Positions 4,627 through 10,855 of a DNA stretch of 10,855 nucleotides are shown in pieces. The stretch's first letter is position 1. Every line of letters starts with the position of its first letter. The position numbers and the translations under genes were made by a program. Source of the DNA: Myxococcota bacterium (GTDB lineage: Bacteria; Myxococcota_C; UBA6777); contig JAKLKB010000215.1 of the NCBI GenBank assembly GCA_023150835.1, forward strand, positions 1-10,855. Direction: 5' to 3'. A model generated the notes under the pieces. The model did no database searches, was not told where the DNA came from, and worked only from the letters and a program-made list of their open reading frames with translations.

Positions 4627-5097
4627 ATGAAACCCATCAAAACCATTTTTCTGATCGTTGCGTCGATGTCCTTTGTCGTCGCAGCCTTGATCTTTGTCCC
4701 GATGATGCTTCACCCAAGCGCCTCCTCGACGGTCTATTGGGTCGCAGCCTTTGTTTTTTCCCTACTGATCGGCCTTTTCTCTTTTGTCTGGCGGCTGCTC
4801 ACGAGCGTTCTTGCGGCCATCGATTCTTCTAGCTCGCTCCATCACCGAGGTACACGCATCCGCACCTCGGACGCGCACGAAGCCGATCCTTGGATCATCG
4901 AATCCTCCGACTCCAGCGACGCAAACGATGATCACCCACGCTACGGCGGCGAAACCGAAAGCAGCTACGATACCGCCGATAGCAGCTCGTTTAGCGATTC
5001 CTCTTCTTCTTACAGTAGCGACTCGTCCTCTTCTTCATCCGGCGACTCGTCTTCTTCTAGCAGCGATTCCTCTTCTTCTTCTAGCAGCGATTGGTGA
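4627..5097 (+). CDS. Small membrane protein with Ser/Asp-rich tail
   Basis: I do not recognise this 156-residue protein. Two hydrophobic helices are clear (about 7-28 and 37-60), the second ending in WRLL. Residues 64-100 are a polar, acidic linker, and 101-156 are almost only Ser with Asp/Gly/Tyr at intervals, ending SSSDW. The tail is encoded by short imperfect repeats of TCTTCTTCTAGCAGCGATTC type (about 4990-5093), so its length could change by slippage. A hairpin topology with a flexible tail is likely. Such a tail resembles spacer or phospho-acceptor segments, but no anchor motif (LPXTG, PEP-CTERM) is present. GAGG lies 8 nt before the ATG. It is divergent from pheS and followed by repeat copy B. 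Function is unknown; low-complexity tails give many spurious matches. Confidence 0.72.
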   Translation: MKPIKTIFLIVASMSFVVAALIFVPMMLHPSASSTVYWVAAFVFSLLIGLFSFVWRLLTSVLAAIDSSSSLHHRGTRIRTSDAHEADPWIIESSDSSDANDDHPRYGGETESSYDTADSSSFSDSSSSYSSDSSSSSSGDSSSSSSDSSSSSSSDW

Positions 5098-8611: not shown

Positions 8612-8842
8612 TTACACGGCTTCATGATCTTCGCCGTCTTCGCTCTCCGCTTTCCCCATACCGCCCGCCATCTCCGTTAATTCACCTTGCTGATTCACAA
8701 TCCCTGCCCGAACGAGAGTCGCAAACTTTTCTTTCTCTGTCAGTCGGTCAAATGATTCCATCGCTTTCAAGTGGAAATGATATTCCTCACTCCGATAATA
8801 ATCCCATTCCTTCGGGAGCTTTCTCTCCTGTTGGCTGCTCAT
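8612..8842 (-). CDS. Small protein, candidate partner/antitoxin of the ART-like gene
   Basis: This 76-residue soluble, charged protein starts MSSQQERKLPKEWDYYRSEE. Its middle carries LTEKEKFATLVRAGIVNQQG followed by ELTEMAGG (about 36-61). I recall this pattern (LVRAGI..-G-LT..-GG) in short unnamed proteins encoded beside ART-like genes, but I cannot verify this here. Its ATG has GAAAGGAGAA immediately upstream, inside the last codons of the preceding gene, which it overlaps by 56 nt in another frame. The tight overlap suggests co-translation and a functional pair, with this protein a possible antitoxin or immunity factor. The frame ends at a TAA beyond which Rpn-like codons continue in phase, so the C-terminal ESEDGEDHEAV may not be ancestral. 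Confidence 0.6.
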   Translation of the reverse strand: MSSQQERKLPKEWDYYRSEEYHFHLKAMESFDRLTEKEKFATLVRAGIVNQQGELTEMAGGMGKAESEDGEDHEAV

Positions 8843-9452
8843 CCTTTTCTCCTTTCGCTACACGTGGCCGAAAATAGCCTAAAATACACGAAGGATCACG
8901 AACTGCGATCTGAAGATGATTTTTGCTCTGAAACCCAGAACCTTCATAAGCTGCCTCACCTTCCACAAAGACCCCTCGCACAGTCTGATAATACGACGTA
9001 CCCCCATACTCCGCATCCATCCATTCTAAATACCAGTTGAGATAAGCACAATCCCGATACCGAAGCAGGATATCATTAGTGAACCTTTGGCCTCTCTTGT
9101 TCTCTGGCAACGGTTTGCCTGCCGCTTCAAAAATGCCCTTAAACCTCGGCCAAGCCATCCGTAGCTGCTCCGTGTGATACACATCTGCAAGATCAAAACA
9201 ACGACCAAGGTGGATATACGCCCCCAACACAAAGGGAGTCTCCAACTTCCCCCGCTCTTTCTGCTCAAAAGCAAAGTCCCACGCACGACGCGGCCCATAC
9301 TCCCAAAAATACACGCCCTTCCCCAACCAATCGTATGTATTTTGACTTGGACGCAGTTCTTCACCTTCCATCAACACACGTTCCGCTACACTCTTCTCGC
9401 AACCATGATAGCCCACAATCAACCGTTGATAACCCCATTCTGGCGGTCTCAT
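8787..9452 (-). CDS. PARP-like ADP-ribosyltransferase-fold protein, probable toxin
   Basis: The 221-residue product has the layout of an H-Y-E (PARP/diphtheria-toxin-type) ADP-ribosyltransferase. YHG with His16 is near the start, YDWLGKGVYFWE with Tyr48 follows about 30 residues later, and a strand TVRGVFVEGE offers Glu164 or Glu166 as the acidic residue. SGFQSKNHLQIAVRDPSCIL (172-191) and GYF follow as the closing strands. No signal peptide is seen, so it probably acts inside the cell that makes it. Such proteins would transfer ADP-ribose from NAD to a target, or deplete NAD; the target is unknown. The start at 9452 is preceded by a near-perfect AAAGGAGG at 8-nt spacing. An earlier ATG at 9488 lies inside the predicted -10 box and is rejected. 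It overlaps the next small gene by 56 nt, typical of two-gene toxin systems. The fold assignment comes from motif memory. Confidence 0.68.
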   Translation of the reverse strand: MRPPEWGYQRLIVGYHGCEKSVAERVLMEGEELRPSQNTYDWLGKGVYFWEYGPRRAWDFAFEQKERGKLETPFVLGAYIHLGRCFDLADVYHTEQLRMAWPRFKGIFEAAGKPLPENKRGQRFTNDILLRYRDCAYLNWYLEWMDAEYGGTSYYQTVRGVFVEGEAAYEGSGFQSKNHLQIAVRDPSCILGYFRPRVAKGEKDEQPTGEKAPEGMGLLSE

Positions 9453-9487
9453 CTCTCCAACCTCCTTTGCGGCTCTCCTCTCTCCCA

Positions 9488-9516
9488 AAGATACCGATCT
9501 ATCCGCAGTATTTCAA
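9488..9516 (-). promoter_or_regulatory. Sigma70-like promoter for the ART-like gene pair
   Basis: On the minus strand TTGAAA (9511-9516) and TATCTT (9488-9493) are separated by exactly 17 nt. Transcription would begin near 9480 and give a leader of about 28 nt containing the strong AAAGGAGG. It lies just after the DGR terminator-like hairpin, so the pair is probably its own transcription unit. Confidence 0.5.
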
Positions 9517-9587: not shown

Positions 9588-9641
9588 GCAAAAAAGAAAA
9601 CCCCTTGGGCGCTCAGTCGCTAGACCTACGGACGCAAGGGG
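9588..9641 (-). terminator. Rho-independent-like terminator of the DGR transcript
   Basis: Read on the minus strand, CCCCTTG (9635-9641) pairs with CAAGGGG (9601-9607). Two more base pairs are possible after a bulge. The stem is followed by TTTTCTTTTTTGCG (9587-9600). The enclosed loop is long (27 nt), but the U-rich run is convincing. It would end an RNA carrying the template repeat about 100 nt downstream of it. Confidence 0.55.
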
Positions 9642-9739
9642 CTTTCGGGGCGTTCTTTGTCCCACAATGGGGCGCGGGTAAGAGAAGATGGCCTGAGCCT
9701 TGTCCACACAAGCGGCAGCCGTAACCACCGCCTCTCTGG

Positions 9740-9868
9740 GATGCGCTGAGGATTGACGACACGGAAACCGATGTTGTTGTTGCGGTTCGTCGGCGTGTTG
9801 TTGTTACGCTGCGCCGCCCGCACGTTGTTGGCGTTGTTGTTCCAACTGCCACCACGTTTCACGCGGTT
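9740..9868 (-). repeat. DGR template repeat (TR), adenine-rich
   Basis: Starting about 12 nt after the reverse transcriptase stop, the minus strand carries a template typical of DGRs that diversify C-type-lectin/FGE-sulfatase-fold proteins. In frame it would read [17 protein letters not shown], then [11 protein letters not shown], then IGFRVV. Twelve AAC codons lie between 9773 and 9841, in groups of 3, 2, 3, 1 and 3, placed where such variable proteins diversify; AAC is the classic TR codon because adenine-specific mutagenesis can reach many residues from it without creating stops. The flanking RGGSW and IGFRVV match the conserved ends of an FGE-fold variable repeat. It is a template and not a coding region here: no FGE-type gene precedes it and the upstream sequence codes in another frame. 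No matching variable repeat lies in the window. Exact ends need the VR for comparison. Confidence 0.85.
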
Positions 9869-9879
9869 CGTGCTTCTCC

Positions 9880-10294
9880 TTACCCTTTTTCGATCCCTAA
9901 CAAACTCCGTCGCAACATACAAGTATTCGCCATCCGCGCATGACCCAACAGGCCGCGCATCCGACATTGCGCCTCTTCCTCGCTGATCTCCCCCAATGAT
10001 TCCGCCCTCTCCACATCCCGCCAACCCCCGATAAACCGCCGCAAGGCTCCCTGCCCAAATCGTATCAAATGCGGATATACCCGAAAACCCAGAAAACCAA
10101 ATCCCTCCCACGTCGGACACAAGCGCGTCTCGCTCTCCTTCAACCGCAGCCCCAGATGCTCCCGCAGATACCCCTCGATCTGCGCCTTCCACGCCCACAT
10201 CTGCGCCTTGTCCTCCCCAAATAACAACATATCGTCCATGTACCGCAGATAACGCCGCACCGCCTTCTGTTCCCGCGCTTTCCTCTGGCCTACG
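9880..10294 (-). pseudogene. Truncated DGR reverse transcriptase (C-terminal third)
   Basis: The frame carries [19 protein letters not shown], with the catalytic YMDD of RT motif C at 10231-10242. It continues with [17 protein letters not shown] (the primer-grip region of DGR reverse transcriptases), the thumb, and [18 protein letters not shown] near the end, the usual DGR-type C-terminus. A full DGR reverse transcriptase is about 300-400 residues; only about 137 codons are left. The fingers, motifs 0-4, the first catalytic Asp and the family's SQ motif are missing. No start codon or RBS of its own precedes the palm fragment. The HRDC gene runs straight into it, separated only by a one-base frame difference at the T7 run. 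It cannot polymerise alone. It stops 12 nt before the TR, the normal RT-to-TR spacing, so the 3' half of the element is undisturbed. Confidence 0.85.
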
Positions 10295-10301
10295 AAAAAA
10301 A
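10295..10301 (-). other. T7 run at the HRDC/RT junction (frame break)
   Basis: The minus strand reads GGG TTTTTTT CGTAGG. In the HRDC frame this is Gly-Phe-Phe-Arg, and the frame then runs on out of phase with the reverse transcriptase to a stop at 9626. With six Ts instead of seven, HRDC and the RT fragment would form a single 291-residue reading frame. The cause may be a replication or sequencing indel, or a slip site for polymerase or ribosome. Confidence 0.7.
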
Positions 10302-10756
10302 CCCAACAACACATCCGCATAACGTTCCATACTCGCCTTGCCGAAGCCTTGGATCGCCTCCAACCCTGCCCGTGTTTCCGGCTTTTGACGCACAATCTCC
10401 ATCAACACCTCATTGTTTAAGATCACAAACGCAGGGATCCCATCTTCTTTCGCTTGCTTTGCCCGCCAACGCCGCATCGTCTCAAAAAGCGCCTTGTCTT
10501 GCTCGTTTTCCAACTTCGCGCCTGCGCGTTCCCCCTTTCGCTCCTGCCCAGAAAAAATGCCCTGCCCTCCCCTCTTGCGCAAAAACGGGCTGTCCCGATA
10601 CGTCACCACCACGGCCATGCGCGGTACGCCTTGCTGCATGAAAAAATGTTCCTGCGCCGACAATATCTCGACTTCCTCCCCCAGCGCCTCCAACTCGCTG
10701 CTATCAAAACCGCCCGTCTCCGCATCATAACTTAAATTAAACACTTTCACCTTCAT
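10295..10756 (-). CDS. DGR-associated HRDC-domain protein, 3' end fused/disrupted
   Basis: It begins [20 protein letters not shown]. This and [20 protein letters not shown] (36-55) match the N-terminal module of HRDC proteins I associate with DGR loci. The HRDC nucleic-acid-binding domain spans about 84-154: a helical stretch, [20 protein letters not shown] (106-125) and [20 protein letters not shown] (134-153). HRDC proteins are recognised DGR accessories, possibly assisting the retrohoming RNA or target DNA; their role is not settled. AGGAAAAGGCGG directly precedes the ATG. After residue 154 the reading frame passes the T7 run and becomes a non-homologous reading of the RT gene. The end given here is that of recognisable HRDC sequence; the open frame itself continues to 9626, so a longer protein with a meaningless tail could be made. 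Confidence 0.75.
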
Positions 10757-10805
10757 CCGCCTTTTCCTTTCTTTTCTACAAACCTACACCTTGATTCTTC
10801 CATTT

Positions 10806-10855
10806 TTGGGGGCCTGCCCCCAATCCCCCGCCATAGACTCTCGCCCCTTGACCCC
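10806..10855. repeat. G/C palindrome and partial relative of the dispersed repeat
   Basis: TTGGGGGC (10806-10813) and GCCCCCAA (10816-10823) form an 8-bp stem. The final bases, CCCCTTGACCCC, resemble the CTCCCTTGACCCC edge inside copy A. This may be the beginning of a related repeat that continues outside the window, in the same strand sense as copy A. The rest of 10757-10805 shows only the HRDC ribosome binding site and no clear promoter. Confidence 0.4.

Follow-up and report, generated by a model that had tools for sequence, protein, structure and literature searches.

Diversity-generating retroelements (DGRs) are bacterial systems that rewrite receptor genes from a template. Degenerate DGR loci, and target genes that persist as remnants after loss of the DGR core, have already been described (PMC10907252, PMC4891356). 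In Thiohalocapsa PB-PSB1, Doré et al. (2024, PMC10907252) reported degenerate DGR loci with missing reverse transcriptases (RTs), targets that are diversified in trans and, within single aggregates, degenerate loci accompanied by structural variants that are intact. In Treponema denticola, one template repeat (TR) serves several remote targets, and isolates were found to keep target genes after the core had been lost (Nimkulrat et al. 2016, PMC4891356). The HRDC domain is likewise already known as a DGR accessory (PMC10053308). The locus analyzed here is, in our view, very likely a degenerate and recently inactivated multi-target DGR of the HRDC type. Its repertoire would now be frozen, unless an unassembled or strain-level RT that is intact acts on it in trans.

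The DNA studied (the window) is the entire contig C185, 10,855 nt, of a Myxococcota bacterium (GCA_023150835.1, JAKLKB010000215.1). Its source genome (G000) is a single-strain draft assembly with 239 contigs totalling 7.56 Mb and a completeness of 93%. The initial annotation had recognized an HRDC gene, a YMDD-bearing RT C-terminus, a TR and a terminator in the order expected of a DGR, and intact relatives were found to share the order target, HRDC, RT and TR. Four intact HRDC-type DGRs, from a Chromatiaceae MAG (L061), a Gammaproteobacteria MAG (L065), Desulfobotulus (L066) and a Desulfobulbaceae MAG (L068), have the order variable repeat (VR), HRDC, RT and TR, and encode full-length RTs with IGNLTSQ or IGNLPSQ and YMDD. 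Mismatches between TR and VR in these intact DGRs fall almost exclusively at adenines (19/0, 14/0, 15/1 and 18/1 at adenines/elsewhere). The target gene adjoining the window locus lies past the contig end; contigs C221 of this genome and C506 of a sister species suggest a position upstream of HRDC. The contig end itself falls inside a 53-bp repeat (10803–10855; GGGGTCAAGGGGCGA..TTGGGGGCAGGCCCCCAAAAA) with dozens of copies in both species. Elsewhere in the window, a 233-aa ORF (8787–9488, minus strand) has no Pfam match and a weak PADLOC match to PD-T4-9_A (E 3.5e-4), and a 76-aa ORF beside it (8612–8842, minus strand) could form with it a toxin-antitoxin-like unit. A further small ORF (4627–5097) combines two hydrophobic segments with an extended serine-rich tail (SSSSSDSSSSSS).

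The HRDC-domain accessory gene (10295–10756, minus strand) starts at 10756 and is complete apart from its last ~10–20 residues, with similarity to HRDC ORFs from intact DGRs ending at ~10295. Its identity, as initially proposed, was borne out by a match to Pfam PF00570 (E 2.3e-17, profile positions 2–65 of 68), and, aligned over its full length, it is 24–38% identical to the ORFs that precede intact DGR RTs (L061, L064, L065, L068, L071). Both its domain and its homology to the ORFs that occupy this position in intact DGRs assign it to a known class of DGR accessory genes (Avd, HRDC or MSL). The HRDC frame has no stop at the junction with the RT remnant and continues, out of frame, across the RT into the TR, forming an ORF of 376 codons. 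The initial annotation had described the remainder of the RT as joined to HRDC; at the protein level this does not hold, since the two are in different frames, which rules out a true HRDC-RT fusion protein. The 376-codon ORF does match Pfam FGE, because the TR resembles a VR in that frame. An HRDC-FGE fusion was ruled out on the same ground, the match being the TR read in the VR frame; the ORF is nevertheless at risk of being annotated as such a fusion protein, which is probably not real.

The RT remnant (9880–10287, minus strand) is the C-terminal third of the enzyme, extending from just before YMDD (~10287) to its own stop codon at 9882–9880. It matches the Pfam RVT_1 profile at positions 146–205 of 205 and the PHROG 1423 reverse transcriptase (E 4.7e-26). 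Against a profile of 355 positions built from twelve intact DGR RTs, it covers positions 221–349 (E 6e-38), in agreement with the earlier reading of 9880–10294 as the C-terminus of a DGR RT. The best PDB match of this DGR RT profile was 8ub7 (E 1.7e-78), annotated “Reverse transcriptase”, which we take to be one of the Bordetella phage bRT structures; the next entry, a group-II-type RT, had an E-value of 1.5e-38. Aligned to relatives, the RT lacks about 62% of its length, in line with the initial estimate that its first two thirds are gone. The missing portion includes the motif-A (first catalytic) aspartate and the DGR motif IGNLTSQ (IGxxxSQ), which is present in all aligned relatives with G, S and Q invariant. 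With this region deleted and positions 221–349 of 355 left, the window locus does not encode a complete DGR RT, that is, one carrying both IGxxxSQ and YxDD. The locus, with its truncated RT and retained HRDC and TR, corresponds to the degenerate DGR loci of PMC10907252.

The size of the loss can be read from the distance between the HRDC motif and YMDD, which is 97 nt in the window versus 884–1144 nt in seven intact relatives (884–1088 nt in L061, L065, L066 and L068). We conclude from this that the window locus has lost 0.8–1.05 kb, a segment that held the end of HRDC, the boundary between the two genes and, from the N-terminus on, ~62% of the RT. The junction lies at approximately 10287–10295 (minus strand), where HRDC homology ends (..DVLLGFF) and RT homology begins (QRKARE..). 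As a close intact homologue was not found, the breakpoints are given only approximately. Of the readings first offered for the locus, a recent internal deletion is well supported, both by relatives that have the same order with ~1 kb more and by a different deletion in the sister species (below).

The TR (9754–9873, minus strand; 120 nt, 36 adenines) begins, at 9873, 7 nt past the RT stop, compared with 6–9 nt in L061, L065, L066 and L068; the RT-to-TR spacing has thus been kept, as was remarked at the outset. It is followed by the structured 3′ tail of the TR RNA (9591–9753, minus strand; MFE −63.7 kcal/mol, z −2.1), which leads to a terminator hairpin (about 9597–9650) and U run. This terminator-like hairpin folds; a simple scan limited to loops of 3–8 nt did not list it. 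An Rfam search gave no match. The tail is 93–96% identical to two loci of the sister species, which is near background divergence, and its conservation between the species therefore says nothing on function. With an intact TR, a structured tail and a terminator hairpin, the remaining TR RNA gene looks competent at the level of sequence; without an RT, it should be silent.

Matches to the TR elsewhere in the genome differ from it mainly at TR adenines, with binomial p values down to 3.5e-11. Remote VRs for the window TR were located in contigs C221, C118, C9, C99, C58 and C120, as well as in the sister species. Adenines accounted for all 20 mismatches in one C221 repeat (C221b), 13 of 14 in the other (C221a), 14 of 16 in C118 and all 19 in C293 of the sister species. 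The counts at adenines/elsewhere were weaker for C99 (15/6), C9 (21/6), C58 (19/9) and C120 (14/10). In all pairs the identity between TR and VR stops at the same base (..GTGTCGTCA), at the 3′ ends where a functional DGR would have its IMH (VR) and IMH* (TR), and the downstream sequence differs between the two. A search with the 92-nt TR core, adenines masked, found seven places in this genome (the TR and six others) and two in the sister species, and none with the reversed pattern as control; the pattern was restricted to these two species of the genus. On this masked core, C9 and C221b were perfect, C118 and C221a had one mismatch, C99 two and C58 three. The VRs that the initial annotation had suggested looking for, matching the TR except at adenines, are therefore present, and their presence in at least five contigs agrees with its suggestion that one TR and enzyme diversified several targets. 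Taken together, the mismatches mark this as a genuine TR that has been in recent use.

The targets terminate in FGE domains, several of them behind Ser/Thr kinase domains (Pkinase-FGE and other ORFs), and the VRs end FGE-sulfatase domains, as in targets with a C-type-lectin fold. There are 50 FGE matches in the genome, about ten of which have TR similarity. Contigs C221, C118 and C58 end at the VR and other repeats that border the DGR loci. C221 also retains the start of HRDC, broken up by stop codons; the same stop-ridden HRDC start, entering the same downstream gene, is found in C177 of the sister species. The ORF abutting this HRDC 5′ remnant in C221 (424 aa, L045:1010-2284) looks Rpn-nuclease-like by eye and has no Pfam match, and its junction is common to C177.

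The sister species (G001), represented by one draft genome that is 86% complete, belongs to the same genus, with coding DNA about 93–95% identical where compared. Its VRs differ from the window TR at adenines/elsewhere by 19/0 (C293) and 25/2 (C515). Orthologous VRs of the two species differ chiefly at adenines, with differences at 15 of 30 adenine sites versus 2 of 72 others in the pair C9/C293, and at 20 of 30 versus 8 of 72 in the pair C58/C440. Unless the two species sorted diverged alleles from their ancestor, mutagenesis therefore persisted after they separated. A profile search of the G001 assembly, at its 86% completeness, found no DGR RT. In its contig C506, the HRDC start (ATGAAGG) runs straight into GAAACGTGG within the TR, with a short GAAA microhomology; G001 has lost HRDC and the RT by a different deletion at what seems to be the same locus. 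The TR that remains in C506 has six non-adenine changes and a 3-nt deletion that are mostly absent from the G001 VRs, and it was accordingly not the template of those VRs. In C311 the TR tail alone remains, after a target. The VR of that contig (L189:669-791) is one codon longer than the window TR (RYNYYIGF versus RNNNIGF), which hints at a lost TR variant with an extra AAC.

Only two DGR-type RTs were detected in the source genome, and both are broken, in different ways. The second, in contig C63, belongs to an Avd-type DGR with a complete Avd (NCBIfam E 7.4e-25). Its RT occupies two overlapping frames, profile positions 9–227 in one and 233–349 out of frame, with 5–7 residues (about 20 nt) missing just before MDD. 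The C63 DGR has its own TR, differing from the window TR at 20 non-adenine sites, and its adjoining FGE gene has an internal stop. A caspase (Peptidase_C14)-FGE gene in C182 (L143:145-2184) ends in a VR that differs from the C63 TR at 23 adenines and 3 other sites, and is evidently a remote target of the C63 DGR. The frameshift and the separate TR rule out the C63 RT as a helper enzyme for the window locus.

Other RTs were also ruled out as the missing enzyme. A 721-aa protein (C85, L197:4035-6200; in G001, L196:1520-3685) consists of two complete tandem RT domains, both retron-like; a 904-aa RT (C183, L198:3404-6118) is of the group II/CRISPR type with a PrimPol-like C-terminus (NCBIfam PrimPol_Msp); and in the RTs of genomes G002–G004 the motif, where found, is QGxxxSP, not IGxxxSQ. 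The family's other RTs have the QGxxxSP motif or are retron- or CRISPR-like. A close viral or phage source was ruled out as well, as matches were only distant (<60% identity). The tandem-RT protein has its best PADLOC match in RT_XIII and, with paired RT matches of ~720 aa in G002, G003 and G004, is conserved across the family. The 818-aa ORF that follows the 904-aa RT gene resembles the C-terminal part of that protein by eye. No complete DGR RT is present in the G000 or G001 assemblies (93% and 86% complete), an absence that is provisional, as each species is represented by a single draft genome.

We propose that the ancestral locus had the order target gene, HRDC, RT and TR, and that the RT, with the HRDC protein, would have copied the TR RNA with errors at adenines. 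The cDNA would then have replaced VRs at the 3′ ends of several scattered FGE/C-type-lectin genes, many with protein kinase domains. An internal deletion of 0.8–1.05 kb then cut away the end of HRDC together with the N-terminal ~62% of the RT. Most likely the DGR worked until recently, and its RT was lost separately in the two species. As no active enzyme is possible from the window locus, its targets would constitute a frozen repertoire. We infer that the loss of the enzyme was recent and that it is truly absent from living cells.

The main rival explanation supposes that a complete DGR RT, absent from the assembly but located at another site in the genome or in coexisting strains, acts in trans on the TR as a non-autonomous template. 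Across the core, several VRs show no difference from the TR outside adenines, and this, like the absence of a stop from the HRDC ORF, would equally be expected if the TR were still in use. Given a draft assembly (93%, 239 contigs) and DGR loci that lie amid repeats at which contigs end (C221, C118, C58), an intact copy could be missing, and the trans-diversified targets and intact variants of Doré et al. (PMC10907252) offer a precedent. The initial annotation had likewise raised a complete DGR elsewhere using this TR, or further HRDC-RT loci. Neither was found: the contigs of G000 and G001 hold not so much as a fragment of a further HRDC-type RT, the RT of C63 carries a frameshift and is paired with a different TR and with a remote VR in C182, and the only TR copy of G001 has decayed. 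Service in trans therefore seems unlikely, within an assembly that is 93% complete and from a single strain. A broader form of the idea is that the genus repeatedly loses the DGR enzyme and keeps templates and targets, either because RT-less TRs are served by an RT that the assembly lacks or that only some cells carry, or because selection, through deletion of the enzyme, locks the receptor repertoire; this we hold to be quite unlikely.

That a misjoin or collapse during assembly produced the gap in the RT, with the real locus intact, is highly improbable. The assembly is indeed a draft, and the breaks in the genome's two DGR RTs lie at similar positions ahead of MDD. However, the pieces are in the correct order, orientation and spacing, the missing RT portion is on no contig, the two breaks are unlike (a deletion of ~1 kb in the window versus ~20 nt with a frameshift in C63), and the separate G001 assembly has yet another deletion, with its own microhomology. 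We give almost no credence to the RT fragment acting as a functional short protein, or as one part of a split RT whose N-terminal part is supplied by C63, even though the C63 frame (9–227) and the window fragment (221–349) would together span the profile. C63 retains its own C-terminal part out of frame, as in a pseudogene; a start codon dedicated to the window fragment is lacking, the only ones being chance codons inside HRDC; and the two RTs are 36% identical and associated with different accessory classes (Avd and HRDC). We therefore favor a recently inactivated DGR, with the history of its use carried by the targets and the TR, a history that annotation of RT genes alone would miss.

Comparison with described systems places the locus further. 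The profile match to 8ub7 indicates an RT family in common with the DGR of Bordetella phage BPP-1 (bRT, Avd, TR, VR); that system has Avd, a single target and an intact RT, whereas the window locus has HRDC, several targets and a broken RT. The Thiohalocapsa PB-PSB1 genome has one complete locus per class, with intact variants in long reads (PMC10907252), whereas neither species of the genus studied here shows a complete DGR RT. Losses in Thiohalocapsa were documented as transposon or MITE events (PMC10907252); those here are plain deletions and frameshifts. The remnant isolates of Treponema denticola are without both RT and TR (PMC4891356), in contrast to the window locus, which keeps its TR and accessory gene with the RT gutted. 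The present locus adds to these systems a clear instance of enzyme loss occurring in parallel in two sister species, one of which has kept the template. Because the two species would have lost the hypermutation enzyme independently and after use, they may offer a dated before-and-after view of the freezing of a DGR repertoire.
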